A model generated the notes under the pieces. That model worked only from the letters and a program-made list of their open reading frames with translations. It had not been told where the DNA came from and did no database searches. Position numbers and translations under genes: made by a program. From positions 310,001-374,000 of the forward strand of contig NZ_VTZS01000002.1 in NCBI RefSeq assembly GCF_008367235.1: a DNA stretch of 64,000 bases. Reading direction: 5' to 3'. This document shows, piece by piece, positions 2,985 through 56,820 of the stretch. How positions within the stretch are numbered: the stretch's first letter is position 1; each line of letters begins with the position of its first letter. The DNA is from Pareuzebyella sediminis (GTDB lineage Bacteria > Bacteroidota > Bacteroidia > Flavobacteriales > Flavobacteriaceae).

Positions 2985-5816
2985 TTAGTAGGTATATTTC
3001 AAGCTGACCCCAATGGATATACCCCTTTTAAACGTTTCGATATCTACGGTGCCGTCATTGGTGTTCTCTTGAACAATTTTAATAGTCGGGTCGAAAATGT
3101 TCGAAGCCTTTAGGTTGATTTGAAAGTTTTCACCTATTGAATTCAACCATGAAAGGTTCAAGGTGGGAACAGCTTTTTCTATTTGATTGCCACGCCCTGA
3201 AGATCCCAAAGCAAATATTCTATCGTAGAAATAACTTCCTGATACGGTCAATGAAGTATCATAATTTTCGTAATTTCCTTTATAGGTGATATCGCCATTT
3301 ACCAAAAAGGGGGATGCTCCCTGAAGCTGATCTTCCGTGCGGTCGGGAAAGCTCGCTGTGAAGATGCCATCAACATCCCCTAAATCTTGATGGGTATAGA
3401 GGTATGCCGCATTCGCTCCTACTTTTAATTCACCCGTATCCCCATACTTTGCTATGGTTTTTGCTATTTCAAGTTCAAGCCCTACGGCTTGTCCTTGATT
3501 ACCGGTACGAAAAAAGCGTCGTGTGTTGGCCGCATCATTGGCAATTACCAAATTCACAGGGTCGGAAATCAACTTTCCGAATAGCGCAGCAGAAATAAGT
3601 TCTCCCTCCGTAGGAAAGGCTTCCCACTTGATATCTAGGTTGTAAATGGAAGAAAGGGTGTTCAAAAGATCGGGATTACCTCCAATTTGTTGCGTAACAT
3701 CTTCATAGACAAACGGAGCGACCTCTTTGAATTCCGGTAGTGAAATCGTTCTGCTAAAGGCAAACCTATAATTGCTATTCTCAGAAGGAGAATATTTAAG
3801 GTTTAGTGTGGGCAAAAATTCCGTTTGCGAAAATGCGACGGTTCCGGGATTTACGTTGATGACATCATACGATACATTTTGGTTGAAATTTTCGATTCGT
3901 AACCCTGGTATGGCGGACCATTTTTCGTTGATTTTCCATTGAAAATCGACGAAACCGGCATGGGTGGTCAACTCTCCTGAATAGACATTTTCTGGAAGAC
4001 CGGGGAGGTTATCCCTTGGCCCTCCGAGCGGAAAAATCACATCATTTGTCTGAAGTGCCGGTTTAAGTACGAATAAATTAAAGACATCGTTGTTTGGATC
4101 GTTATCCAGGCTTAAGCGAAAGTTGTCGGCGTTAAAAAGTGCATTGAAGTTATCAAGTTCAATAGGCCCGTAAGAAGCGAGATTGTCGTTGATATTCGTA
4201 TTGTAGCCATAACGGATCGATTCGAAATTTCTCGTTTTGTTCCGTCCAGAGTATCCTATCCTTACTTTTGATTCGTTTTCAAAATCATAGCTCAGCAAAA
4301 AATTTCCGGTGTATTCGTCATCATTGATTTCTTGAAAGAACCGTTGGCTGTCAAAGTTGTTATTGGTGATAAAACGAACATTGGGGACAAAGTTCGTTCT
4401 GGACTCGTCGGTGAATTCGCCGATATCAAGCGTAACCCTTCTACGATCGGGCTGGTCGGCATTTGAAAGGTTGTAGCCCGCACCCCAGAAAAGATTTAAT
4501 CTCTCGGATAATTTATGGTCTCCCAAGAGTTGATTGATAAATATAATGTTCTGATCGAATTGCGAGTTTAACTGATAGTATCCATCATCGGCCAGGTCTA
4601 TTTCTAGCCCTTCGCCCTCAGTACCATAATATCCCACAACACTTTTTGAGTCGTTGATCGCTATAGAATTGAACCGTAATTTATTCTTATCATCAATTCG
4701 ATATACCAAATTGACGATACCGGTGGTGTTCGTATTGTATTGATATCGATCTACATGGGGAAACAGTATGTCTGCCGTTGCCGAATAATTGGCGGACAAA
4801 CCTTGTAAAAACTCAAAGGAATTGGAATAGGAAAAATTTCCGAAAGCACTGAACCGCGACGTTTCACTTAAATTTAAAGACATACCCCCCGCAAGGCTAA
4901 AGGAACTATTGACAGGATATCCGATTTGATCTGGGTCAACACCGTGCTGAATGACCTGTGAGTACTGGGAAGTTGGCGTTCTTTTCCAATATCCCAATGA
5001 ATTTATTCCATCATGAACAGGAAAAAAATTCCATTCCCCTATCGCCCTAGTATTGAAACTTGCGCCAGTATTTACCTCAAAATATCCATCCCCAAAATAT
5101 TGTTTGGAATTAATATCTACATTTCCCGCGGCAAAATCTCCATAGGCCGATGACGAAAAAGTTTTGCTTATGGAAACGTTCTCAATGATGTCGGAAGAAA
5201 AAAGGGCCAGGTCGATATTTTTCTTATCAATATCGTTCGAAGGAACCGAAAGCCCGTTAAGCGTAGTGCTCTGATATCTATCCCCGAGTCCGCGTACATA
5301 TATATTGCTTGAACCTTGTTGTTTAGACACTCCGGAAATCTGTGCGACCGCAGCGGCGGCATCATCAATACCCTTTCTCGAAAGTGCTTCCGCACTTATC
5401 GCTTCTTGAATTACAAGCGCTTTTTTCTGTTGGATCAATAGGGAAACTTCTGAATTTTTCCGGGTGGTCGTGGTTACCACTACCTCATCCAGCGAAACCC
5501 CTTCTGCAGCACTCATCGGTACGTTTATGGTCGTCACTTTGCCAGCTTCAACGCTAACACTGGGTATTTCGACGGTTTCATATCCCAAATAACTGAAAAC
5601 TACGGTGTAGGTTCCTGGTTCGAGACCCGCTATTTCATAAAGCCCATCAAAATCAGAGGTAGTACCTTTAGTTGTGCCTTTTATGATTACATTGGCGAAA
5701 GCAAGGGGTTCGTTATTGTAATCCTTATCAGTAAGCCTACCTGCAATACTAGATGTTTGAGCAGTCGCGTGGGTTGAAAAAAACGCGAATAGCATAAATA
5801 AAATATAGATTCTCAT
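2985..5816 (-). CDS. TonB-dependent outer membrane receptor with carboxypeptidase-regulatory-like N-domain
   Basis: This 943-residue protein has a signal peptide (residues 1-20, ending ATAQ). Next comes a CarboxypepD_reg-like beta-sandwich (about 24-105; GRLTDKDYNNEPLAFANV, GTVVFSYLGYETVE-like strands) and the TonB-box-like SLDEVVV near residue 109. A plug follows (about 130-230; IYVRGLGDRYQSTTLNG), then a long beta-barrel ending in an aromatic residue (SLKYTY). TonB-dependent receptors import scarce ligands using the inner-membrane proton motive force. This one heads an operon with the beta-helix lipoprotein, which takes the place of a SusD-type partner. It is transcribed divergently from a PhoB/PhoR-like pair, with an 11-bp repeat array between them. 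That makes a phosphorus-related substrate the best guess, but nothing in the barrel itself shows this. Confidence 0.88.
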   Translation of the reverse strand: MRIYILFMLFAFFSTHATAQTSSIAGRLTDKDYNNEPLAFANVIIKGTTKGTTSDFDGLYEIAGLEPGTYTVVFSYLGYETVEIPSVSVEAGKVTTINVPMSAAEGVSLDEVVVTTTTRKNSEVSLLIQQKKALVIQEAISAEALSRKGIDDAAAAVAQISGVSKQQGSSNIYVRGLGDRYQSTTLNGLSVPSNDIDKKNIDLALFSSDIIENVSISKTFSSSAYGDFAAGNVDINSKQYFGDGYFEVNTGASFNTRAIGEWNFFPVHDGINSLGYWKRTPTSQYSQVIQHGVDPDQIGYPVNSSFSLAGGMSLNLSETSRFSAFGNFSYSNSFEFLQGLSANYSATADILFPHVDRYQYNTNTTGIVNLVYRIDDKNKLRFNSIAINDSKSVVGYYGTEGEGLEIDLADDGYYQLNSQFDQNIIFINQLLGDHKLSERLNLFWGAGYNLSNADQPDRRRVTLDIGEFTDESRTNFVPNVRFITNNNFDSQRFFQEINDDEYTGNFLLSYDFENESKVRIGYSGRNKTRNFESIRYGYNTNINDNLASYGPIELDNFNALFNADNFRLSLDNDPNNDVFNLFVLKPALQTNDVIFPLGGPRDNLPGLPENVYSGELTTHAGFVDFQWKINEKWSAIPGLRIENFNQNVSYDVINVNPGTVAFSQTEFLPTLNLKYSPSENSNYRFAFSRTISLPEFKEVAPFVYEDVTQQIGGNPDLLNTLSSIYNLDIKWEAFPTEGELISAALFGKLISDPVNLVIANDAANTRRFFRTGNQGQAVGLELEIAKTIAKYGDTGELKVGANAAYLYTHQDLGDVDGIFTASFPDRTEDQLQGASPFLVNGDITYKGNYENYDTSLTVSGSYFYDRIFALGSSGRGNQIEKAVPTLNLSWLNSIGENFQINLKASNIFDPTIKIVQENTNDGTVDIETFKRGISIGVSLKYTY

Positions 5817-5873
5817 TTGTATTTTGTCGACTTTAATATTGCCGCAAATAACGTGAGGGGCTGTAAAGGTCGA

Positions 5874-5928
5874 GTTAGCTGTATGTTAAACCTTTATTGC
5901 AATAAGGTTAGTTAAATGTTACTATATT
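5874..5928 (+). promoter_or_regulatory. Array of five 11-bp direct repeats, probable PhoB-type operator
   Basis: Units start at 5874, 5885, 5896, 5907 and 5918, exactly 11 bp apart: gttagctgtat, gttaaaccttt, attgcaataag, gttagttaaat, gttactatatt. Four of five begin GTTA and the tails are AT-rich. PhoB-family winged-helix regulators bind head-to-tail to 11-bp direct repeats (7 bp contacted plus a 4-bp AT-rich spacer), so this layout fits the adjacent regulator. It lies 57 bp before the receptor start and 75 bp before the regulator start, so it could control both directions. A possible -7 box for the regulator (TATCTTTA, 5963-5970) follows it. Confidence 0.7.
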
Positions 5929-6003
5929 AAATCAACGTTAAGTCGTTTTGCCGTACGGGGATTATCTTTATCTTCGACCGCACAAACCAGATTTAGCTTT
6001 CCC

Positions 6004-6690
6004 ATGAAGAAGAAAGACATTAGGATTCTCTTAGTAGACGATGAGCCCGATATTCTTGAGATAGTAGGGTATAACCTTACCTCGGAAGGCTATCAGGTTT
6101 TTACGGCTACAAACGGAATAGAGGCGGTGTCTATGGCAAAAAAGAAAAATCCGCACCTTATTATTTTAGATGTGATGATGCCCGAGATGGACGGTATGGA
6201 GGCCTGCGAAGTAATTCGAAATACCTCGGGTCTTGAAAATACCTTAATTACATTTCTAACCGCCCGAGGGGAGGATTACTCTCAGGTGGCAGGTTTCGAT
6301 GCCGGGGCCGATGATTATATCACCAAGCCCATTCGCCCGAAAGTTTTGGTCAGCAAAGTGAAGGCTTTGCTCAGAAGACTAAAGGAAGATAATGGCTCTC
6401 AAGAAGAAATTGTTAAGGTTGGCAATATTGTGATTAACAGAGAGGAATACAAAATTGTCAATGATGGTGAGGAGATTGTGTTGCCCAGAAAGGAATTTGA
6501 ACTGTTGGCCCTATTGACTTCCAAGCCCAACAAAGTATTCAAAAGAGAAGTTATTCTTGACAGGGTTTGGGGAAATGAAGTAGTTGTCGGAGGCCGAACC
6601 ATCGATGTTCACATCAGAAAACTGAGAGAGAAAATAGGCGAGGAGCACTTCAAGACCGTTAAAGGGGTCGGCTACAAATTCGTACTTTAG
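6004..6690 (+). CDS. OmpR/PhoB-family response regulator
   Basis: This 228-residue regulator has an N-terminal receiver domain: acidic pocket VDDEPD at 11-16, phosphoacceptor D56 in LIILDVMMPEMDG, T86 in FLTARG, and K108 in DYITKPI. A C-terminal winged-helix domain follows (about 130-228), with the DNA-recognition region RTIDVHIRKLREKIG and the final hairpin TVKGVGYKFVL. Proteins of this type are phosphorylated by a partner kinase and bind tandem direct repeats. The kinase gene follows after 118 bp, and a five-copy 11-bp repeat lies in the promoter region. Similarity is closest to PhoB/PhoP-type regulators. Control of the divergent receptor operon is inferred from position and from the repeat. 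Confidence 0.9.
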   Translation: MKKKDIRILLVDDEPDILEIVGYNLTSEGYQVFTATNGIEAVSMAKKKNPHLIILDVMMPEMDGMEACEVIRNTSGLENTLITFLTARGEDYSQVAGFDAGADDYITKPIRPKVLVSKVKALLRRLKEDNGSQEEIVKVGNIVINREEYKIVNDGEEIVLPRKEFELLALLTSKPNKVFKREVILDRVWGNEVVVGGRTIDVHIRKLREKIGEEHFKTVKGVGYKFVL

Positions 6691-6808: not shown

Positions 6809-7849
6809 ATGGCCATTAAGCTCAAAAGGTCCTATCGCTTTGCGTTTCGTTCATCCCTAGCCATTACGGTTCTTGTTGTGGCTCTTACGTCGGTATTGGC
6901 CTACTTTGACTTCGGAGTATCATGGAACGCGATTCCCTTTATTGCACTATCTATATTTATAGGGTCATTTATTGTGCTCCAGATTCGAATACAGCATTTT
7001 ATCTATAGACGAATCAAACGGATTTATGACGATGTGGCTCTTTTGGAATCCTCGTCTCCTATTTCCGGTCCGATTACGACCGATATGAAAACCCTGACCG
7101 AAGAAATAGAGAAATTTGCCCAAGACAAGAAGGTAGAAATAGATACGTTAAAGATTCGCGAAGAATATCGAAAGGAGTTTTTGGGTAATGTATCTCATGA
7201 ACTTAAAACCCCTCTTTTCACGGTTCAAGGCTATATCGAAACGCTTATTGACGGTGCGATCAATGATAAAAATGTCCGCAAGAAGTATTTGCAACGCGCC
7301 AACAAGGGGGTAGAACGGCTTATCTATATCGTGAAAGACCTTGACCTCATTACCAAACTGGAGGTCGGGGACCTGAACTTAAGAAAAGAAAACTTTGATA
7401 TTATCGAGGTGATCCAAGGTGTTTTCGACTTGCTCGAAATGAGAACCGAAAAAAAGAAGATTATGCTCACTTTCGACATGGAGTATGATAAGCCTGTTTA
7501 TGTGAAAGCCGATAAAGATAAAATTCAACAAGTGGTATCGAACCTTATCGTAAATTCTATAAAATATGGTCATCATGAAGGTACGACCGAGGTCAGCGTA
7601 GAGAATTTGATAAAAAATAAGGTTATAGTTAGGGTGACCGATAATGGCGAGGGAATACCGAAACAGCACATACCACGTCTTTTTGAACGCTTTTACAGGG
7701 TGGATAAGAGTGGAAGTCGAAGTGAAGGAGGGTCGGGTCTTGGTCTGTCCATAGTTAAGCACATCATAGAGGCACATAACGAAAAAATTTATGTCGAGAG
7801 TGAAATTGGGGTAGGTTCTGAGTTTTCATTTACCTTGGAAAAGGCCTGA
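6809..7849 (+). CDS. PhoR-like membrane sensor histidine kinase
   Basis: The 346-residue protein has two membrane helices (about 14-32 and 42-60) separated by a very short loop, so it has almost no periplasmic sensor domain, as in PhoR-type kinases. A linker leads to the dimerisation/phosphotransfer domain with the H-box FLGNVSHELKTPL (H130). The ATPase domain has an N-box (VVSNLIVNSIKYG), a G1 box (DNGEGIP), an F-box (RLFERFYRVD) and a G2 box (GGSGLGLSIVK). It follows its regulator gene in the same direction. The absence of an extracytoplasmic sensor suggests it reads the state of another membrane complex, as PhoR reads the Pst/PhoU system, but no such genes are in this window. Confidence 0.88.
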   Translation: MAIKLKRSYRFAFRSSLAITVLVVALTSVLAYFDFGVSWNAIPFIALSIFIGSFIVLQIRIQHFIYRRIKRIYDDVALLESSSPISGPITTDMKTLTEEIEKFAQDKKVEIDTLKIREEYRKEFLGNVSHELKTPLFTVQGYIETLIDGAINDKNVRKKYLQRANKGVERLIYIVKDLDLITKLEVGDLNLRKENFDIIEVIQGVFDLLEMRTEKKKIMLTFDMEYDKPVYVKADKDKIQQVVSNLIVNSIKYGHHEGTTEVSVENLIKNKVIVRVTDNGEGIPKQHIPRLFERFYRVDKSGSRSEGGSGLGLSIVKHIIEAHNEKIYVESEIGVGSEFSFTLEKA

Positions 7850-56708: not shown

Positions 56709-56717
56709 TAAGTTTTT

Positions 56718-56820
56718 AGGAGCTAGGAGCTAGGAGCTAGGAGCTAGGAGCTAGGAGCTAGGAGCTAGGAGCTAGGAGCCAGAGGAGCCAGGAGTTAGGA
56801 ACTAGGGGCTAGGAATCAGG
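56718..56820. repeat. Tandem heptamer repeat AGGAGCT
   Basis: Eight perfect copies of AGGAGCT run from 56718 to 56773. Six degenerate copies follow (AGGAGCC twice with a 2-bp insertion between, AGGAGTT, AGGAACT, AGGGGCT, AGGAATC). The array ends 12 bp before the four-helix-bundle start codon. Degenerate copies near the gene and perfect copies away from it suggest recent slippage growth at the far end. Related heptamers in the opposite orientation lie past the gene (57186-57211). Confidence 0.9.

Follow-up and report, generated by a model that had tools for sequence, protein, structure and literature searches.

Gene content of the locus

The sequence analyzed (the window) is a 64,000-nucleotide stretch of the Pareuzebyella sediminis genome, positions 310,001–374,000 of contig NZ_VTZS01000002.1. 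Two divergent groups of genes near its beginning share an intergenic region with a G+C content of 37%. On the minus strand, a TonB-dependent receptor of 943 aa (2985–5816; PF13715, PF07715 and PF00593) is the first gene of the predicted controlled operon. It is followed by a lipoprotein-like protein of 761 aa (700–2985), which has no Pfam match and whose homologues adjoin receptors in relatives, and then by a 102-aa protein whose sequence has a type IX secretion (T9SS) tail (238–546). On the plus strand are a PhoB-like OmpR-family response regulator of 228 aa (6004–6690) and a PhoR/PnpS-like sensor histidine kinase of 346 aa (6809–7849; PF00512 and PF02518).

The regulator has the two domains of the OmpR/PhoB family, Response_reg (PF00072) and Trans_reg_C (PF00486). 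Its best NCBIfam model is TIGR02154, PhoB, with 211.6 bits, below the cut-off of 296.2; the score against the PhoB equivalog model NF053854 is likewise 211.6 bits, below the cut-off of 270. The kinase scores 247.7 bits against PnpS (cut-off 400) and 242 bits against PhoR (cut-off 334.2). From its sequence the regulator is best called PhoB-like, and it would take the name PhoB only by synteny with Fjoh_0544 of Flavobacterium johnsoniae.

The lipoprotein-like protein contains a fused duplication, and over 320 aa the two halves share 66% identity; several of the receptor-adjacent lipoprotein homologues in relatives have about 390–440 aa. The T9SS-tail protein is about 45–47% identical to a small protein that is directly divergent from phoBR in three other loci (L105–L107), and in the window its gene is separated from phoB by those for the receptor and the lipoprotein. 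Elsewhere in the window, a 7-bp unit, TAGGAGC, is repeated 13.7 times at 56717–56814, between two plus-strand ORFs.

An array of 11-bp repeats upstream of the receptor

The initial annotation of this DNA reported five 11-bp direct repeats, each with GTTA, in the intergenic region. The plus-strand unit starts that it gave (5874, 5885, 5896, 5907 and 5918) are confirmed by the coordinates and are in exact 11-bp register. GTTA is present in four of the five units, those at 5874, 5885, 5907 and 5918. The middle unit at 5896 reads ATTGCAATAAG (ATTG, two of four letters in agreement with GTTA), and on this ground a description as five perfect copies was rejected. The array also extends past the five units: there is a sixth half-site at 5863–5866 (GTAA on the plus strand, TTAC on the receptor strand), and a further pair of half-sites at 5926–5940, on the phoB side, is set apart from the array. 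On the receptor strand the array has the form TAAC-N7-TAAC-N18-TAAC-N7-TAAC, and its six slots read TAAC, TAAC, CAAT, TAAC, TAAC and TTAC.

The array stands out from the rest of the window. Scored as five GTTA slots at 11-bp spacing, it reaches 18 of 20 in the 64 kb; the second-highest score, 17 at 5863, is the same array one slot upstream, and the remaining sequence scores at most 14 on either strand. A scan with all 4-mers of at least three different letters, at periods 7 to 20, singled the array out: at 11 bp, no other place in the window has four of five units identical. Periods 7 and 14 also gave matches. The array is absent from the Tandem Repeats Finder output for the window, which is expected because the core is only 4 bp inside a variable 11-bp unit. 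Over the whole genome (20 contigs, 4.9 Mb), the array in the window is the single exact match to TAACN7TAACN18TAACN7TAAC; there is no match with one mismatch, and one with two mismatches (C14:761344). A looser search of this genome, with up to 3 mismatches in 16, returned noise, with 43 matches compared to 148 for the reversed pattern. The array is not a chance repeat.

Six-slot layout and promoter geometry

The receptor was searched for in 100 genomes of the family, its own included, and 84 had a match at 1e-50. A logo was made on the receptor strand from the region before the start codon in 30 receptor loci, the window's own and the 29 best. Loci in which at least 13 of the 16 array letters matched were kept (27 of 30) and the 3 below this threshold were dropped. 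In the 27 loci the array is mostly about 100 bp before the receptor start codon, and their consensus is TAAC-N7-TAAC-N7-xxAY-N7-TAAC/T-N7-TAAC-N7-TTAC-N14-TTTG. No signal was seen in these loci in the flanking slots, 0 and 7. The Fisher values calculated for these loci count related genomes as independent and serve only for guidance.

All six half-sites in the window are on the minus strand. Half-site 1 (5918–5921) is TAAC in 27 of 27 loci and half-site 2 (5907–5910) in 24. Half-site 3 (5896–5899) is degenerate, CAAT in the window and TAAC in none of the 27, with A at the third position in 25 and C or T at the fourth in 22. Half-site 4 (5885–5888), TAAC in the window, is TAAC in 16, TAAT in 10 and TTAC in 1, and half-site 5 (5874–5877) is TAAC in 26 of 27. 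Half-site 6 (5863–5866), missing from the initial annotation, is TTAC within TTTACA; TTAC is found here in 21 loci and TAAC in 1. The layout is that of a PHO box, 11-nt direct repeat units with seven well conserved and four less conserved positions, at least two in tandem (PMC4415409), here with six slots in register. The simplest reading of the sequence is that the six half-sites pair up into three 22-bp PHO boxes that adjoin one another in the receptor promoter.

The -7 box of flavobacterial sigma-A promoters, TAnnTTTG, is at -12 to -5 in F. psychrophilum (PMC9723704). A predicted element of this kind for the receptor operon, GTTATTTG, is at 5845–5852 on the minus strand, with TTTG (5845–5848) at the matching distance in 26 of the 27 loci. 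Since TTTG ends at -5, the receptor transcript is predicted to start near 5840, which would put half-site 5 at about -37 to -34 and half-site 6 at about -26 to -23. The TTTACA of half-site 6 is followed by 9 bp and then by the 8-bp predicted -7 box. As in PHO boxes, in which the last repeat takes the -35 region, this region is taken by the last repeat relative to the predicted -7 box.

The pair at 5926–5940 (TAAC at 5940–5937 and TAAT at 5929–5926, minus strand) is offset by 8 bp from the register of the array. A predicted -7 element for the phoB-like gene, TATCTTTA, was recognized from sequence at 5963–5970 on the plus strand, and several named relatives have TAnnTTTA-like stretches. Because the pair would be at about -42 of the predicted phoB start, it is read as a predicted phoB-side PHO box with two half-sites, which probably serves autoregulation of the phoB-like gene.

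Distribution in the family and phylum

With up to one mismatch, the array was found in 77 of the 100 family genomes at 131 places, a number that counts overlapping matches of one array separately (as in G073, G088 and G090). Of these places, 87 (in 63 genomes) are between -3.5 and +9 kb of a receptor homologue, and 44 are away from one; for some of the 44 the gene context was examined. At the receptor loci the array is on the same strand as the receptor in 87 of 87 cases, with positions relative to the receptor clustered at -103 to -126 bp, about -770 bp, about -1500 bp and +4.5 to +5.6 kb. In the two cases at about -1500 that were opened (L132 and L133), the order is array, lipoprotein homologue, receptor.

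Control patterns were searched for in the same genomes. A pattern with altered spacing (N8/N17/N8) had 49 places in 38 genomes, and 0 of the 49 were near a receptor. For the reversed pattern there were 72 places, spread over 45 genomes, and for the reversed altered-spacing pattern 228. The excess of the array in raw number is thus modest (131 compared to 72 and 49), and the case for it comes from location.

Across the phylum, an exact search returned 24 places in 20 of 296 genomes, some of which are low-complexity repeats (e.g. in G101 and G221). Beyond the receptor sites in the organism's own genome (G000) and in G001, 12 regions in 11 genomes were examined, covering 13 of the 24 places. The genes of seven of the phylum-wide regions (L126, L128, L129, L130, L142, L143 and L144) were searched with Pfam.

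Gene served by the array

The initial annotation proposed the array as a likely operator for the adjacent regulator. To see which of the two divergent genes it follows, phoB loci were collected with a PhoB query from L156, a relative in which phoBR and the receptor are in the same order. This gave 80 loci from titled records, nearly all of them Flavobacteriaceae by record title; 2 at contig ends were dropped, leaving 78. The array, with up to two mismatches, is within 400 bp upstream of phoB in 42 of the 78 (12 of them exact), and it points away from phoB in all 42. The other 36 loci have no array upstream of phoB. At the same 78 loci the altered-spacing pattern was found in none and the reversed pattern in one.

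Whether a phoB locus has the array depends on its neighbor. The array is present in 33 of 36 loci in which the neighbor is a divergent receptor, 3 of 25 with a homologue of the T9SS-tail protein, 3 of 4 with a lipoprotein homologue, 3 of 11 with some other neighbor, and 0 of 2 with a receptor in another orientation. It tracks the receptor, not phoB with a T9SS-tail neighbor, and so it belongs to the receptor promoter and not to the regulator's own gene. An operator of phoB alone was rejected on these counts.

The extra pair (TAAC-N7-TAAT) has a different distribution. Among the 42 phoB-adjacent array loci, TAAC is found at -19 in 25 and TAAT or TAAC at -8 in 28. In receptor arrays that do not adjoin phoB, the figures are 2 of 20 at -19 and 2 of 20 at -8; this set had 22 receptor loci, of which 2 had no array at three mismatches and were dropped.

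Arrays at phosphate genes

If the array served phosphate control, as the initial annotation had it, similar repeats were expected at phosphate genes, and they were found before PstSCAB(-PhoU), in porin/PHO4 clusters and beside phoBR. The P. sediminis genome has no match to PstS (PF12849), the Na/Pi cotransporter (PF02690) or PhoX (PF05787). Only one other strong site could therefore be checked there, and the pst genes were checked in relatives. The strong site, C14:761344, was also recovered by the promoter-coupled pattern. It reads TAAC, AAAG, TAAT, TAAC, TAAC, N14, TTTG, equivalent to slots 2 to 6 plus the -7 box, and it precedes the gene for a 132-aa CarbopepD_reg_2 protein. The cluster also encodes a MORN_2 protein, a Porin_O_P porin and a PHO4 transporter.

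In one family genome (L102), the array is directly before genes for PstS, two permeases and an ATPase, as assigned by Pfam. From a different class of the phylum come L128 and L129, with the array 62–64 bp before PstS, two permeases, an ATPase and PhoU (also by Pfam), and L130, L143 and L144, in which it precedes TonB receptors 26–28% identical to that of the window. Arrays adjoin phoBR in L105, L106, L107 and L137, and in L115 an array precedes the gene for a CarbopepD_reg_2 protein, with a Na/Pi cotransporter gene in divergent orientation to it. The array is directly in the promoters of phosphate genes at L102, L128 and L129, and it is beside phoBR; in the porin/PHO4 clusters the distance or the direction is less clear.

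Seven arrays (L097, L098, L099, L104, L114, L116 and L139) have a small MORN_2-like gene beside them, and their direction is away from this gene. The MORN_2 matches are weak, under the Pfam cut-off, and the 117-aa gene of L139 has no match. In L098, L099 and L104, the array points at a Porin_O_P gene 304–356 bp away, followed in L098 by PHO4. No phosphate gene is ahead of the array in L114 or L116, the sequence ends in L097, and in L139 the porin and PHO4 genes are on the opposite side of the array. The claim that arrays precede porin and PHO4 genes was weakened, given the distance of 304–356 bp and the misfits L114, L116 and L139. Some sites, namely these MORN_2-side arrays, do not fit a simple promoter role.

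Comparison with known systems

In E. coli K-12, the phoA repeats are CTGTCAT and TTGTCAC, and 10 bp separate the last 7-mer from TATAGT, the -10 element. The window array resembles this PHO box in having 11-bp direct repeats that run along the direction of transcription, with the last repeat about 10 bp before the -10/-7 element. A class II activator is likely because this repeat-to-box geometry matches. It differs from phoA in its core (TTAAC(A) compared to CTGTCAT), in its six half-sites compared to two, and in a -7 box of the TAnnTTTG type in place of TATAGT. The window cores, TAAC and TTAC, do not match the enterobacterial consensus CTGTCAT, a difference that the initial annotation had foreseen. 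In Bacillus subtilis, PhoP boxes are of the TTAACA type with several direct repeats in register; their core is nearly that of the window array, in a different phylum and with a different sigma promoter.

Riemerella anatipestifer, which we take to belong to the same order as P. sediminis, has a regulator, PhoP, that is similar in motif and in sites. Its DAP-seq motif is TTTAACA, and EMSA sites precede its own phoPR operon (-156 to -121) and moxR (PMC9603813); arrays in the present study also precede MoxR genes (L111 and L112). In that paper, the motif is likened to that of ArcA, and the term "direct repeat" does not occur. Riemerella PhoP is not known to sense phosphate.

More generally, a PHO box consists of two 11-nt direct repeats with a consensus that differs by species (PMC4415409). 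Pho boxes have been predicted at plcP clusters of marine bacteria (PMC4796936), though the part of that paper available to us does not give their sequence. No described Bacteroidota PHO box was recognized in a search of open-licence papers.

A close published counterpart is the PhoBR cluster of F. johnsoniae, in which the genes are in the same order as in the window. Here phoR, phoB, a TonB receptor and a lipoprotein (Fjoh_0543–0546) form one Pi-sensitive cluster (PMC8115612). The first data column for Pi depletion in that paper, whose values we read as log2 fold change, gives 8.02 for the receptor, 9.91 for the lipoprotein and 3.06 for PhoB, and the same table gives 0.76 for PhoR (p 0.056). 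Its main text has no occurrence of "pho box", "promoter" or "binding site", and an operator is not described there.

Proposed regulation

It is highly likely that the array is a PHO-box operator of a Bacteroidota type, by which the PhoB-like regulator activates the receptor/lipoprotein operon at low phosphate. The six-slot architecture is conserved, has a fixed strand and promoter position, and recurs at phosphate genes. Judged by its sequence, the layout is of the known PHO-box kind, with a Bacteroidota core and in a longer, stereotyped form. The link to phosphate-type control that was first suggested for this operon is borne out by the arrays at phosphate genes and by the Pi regulation of the syntenic F. 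johnsoniae locus (PMC8115612).

The adjacent PhoB-like regulator is probably the binder, and from the data above we infer its binding, the sign of activation, the pairing of dimers and the start sites. When phosphate is scarce, the phosphorylated product of the gene at 6004 would bind the receptor strand as head-to-tail dimers, on half-sites 1-2, 3-4 and 5-6, with 3 and 6 the weaker ones. In the receptor promoter, the last box would span about -39 to -18, a position at which the bound regulator could stand in for a -33 element. Recruitment of sigma-A polymerase by the regulator would follow at the -7 box (TTTG, 5845–5848), and the TonB receptor and lipoprotein operon would be switched on. The out-of-phase fourth box (5926–5940) would serve autoregulation of the phoB-like gene. 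With three boxes for the receptor and one for phoB, the layout agrees with the published induction, which is stronger for the receptor, but this agreement is only suggestive.

A different OmpR-family regulator responding to another signal could bind the array, with the phoB-like gene a mere neighbor, but this is unlikely. Binding to direct repeats is general in the OmpR/PhoB family (PMC4832192); the same paper describes tandem dimers, a strict 4-bp spacer and better binding to three and four motifs in a row. In 22 of the 30 receptor loci, phoB was not found within the approximately 1.5 kb examined, and some arrays adjoin genes without an obvious phosphate role. A PhoB orthologue is present in 97 of the 100 family genomes, so nearly universal that co-occurrence cannot name the binder. 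What favors the PhoB-like regulator over another is that the neighbors of the array across the phylum include PstSCAB-PhoU, Porin_O_P/PHO4 and phoBR, and that the syntenic F. johnsoniae locus is Pi-regulated (PMC8115612).

The chance that the repeats are a purely autoregulatory operator of the phoB-like gene is very small. They are 83–130 bp upstream of phoB, PhoP of Riemerella has a site before its own operon (PMC9603813), and the extra box marks phoB-adjacent loci; however, the array points to and tracks the receptor, and loci with phoB elsewhere also have it, about 100 bp ahead of the receptor. It is scarcely credible that the repeats are due to chance or to AT-rich DNA in phase with the helix, as in curved DNA or an UP-like element. 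The low G+C of the intergenic region and a repeat spacing near the helical turn might suggest this, but a TAAC core and not mere A/T is conserved; at the 78 phoB loci the altered spacing has no match and the reversed pattern one, and at the receptor the altered spacing has none.

A wider reading that joins these observations is possible but rather doubtful. The operator may be specific to Bacteroidota, with a fixed grammar in which three contiguous 22-bp boxes are welded to a -7 box and the weak slots 3 and 6 set a threshold, and it may travel with the TonB receptor and lipoprotein. In genomes without a detectable PstS, such as that of P. sediminis, this system and a PHO4 permease behind a porin might then be the main phosphate uptake during starvation.

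The phosphate response of one Bacteroidota member has been mapped by expression (PMC8115612), and no described operator was recognized in the literature searched. Because the grammar comes with a spacing control, the regulon can be predicted from sequence, and because the layout is common to many flavobacteria, their phosphate-responsive genes can be searched for from sequence alone. The array is a concrete site for footprinting. With both promoters in one shared intergenic region, the locus also offers a test of why induction is strong for the receptor (three boxes) and weaker for phoB (one box).

Arrays near other genes

A few arrays are found next to genes of other kinds. In the family genomes of L111 and L112, they precede MoxR genes (MoxR-DUF58). 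In L108 (by Pfam) and in L109 and L110 (by layout), they precede an operon for DAP epimerase, GNAT and YceG proteins that is divergent from a trypsin/PDZ protease; for this group a link to phosphate is not obvious, and its nature may be different. The MoxR and DAP epimerase sites could be non-phosphate targets or sites of another OmpR-family regulator. In another family of the phylum, a conserved array adjoins an unannotated gene of 284–286 aa (L126:4989–5047, L127:5001–5048 and L158:4797–4857). The arrays of L126 and L158 can be read on both strands, and a thiolase/SDR pair is near that of L126.
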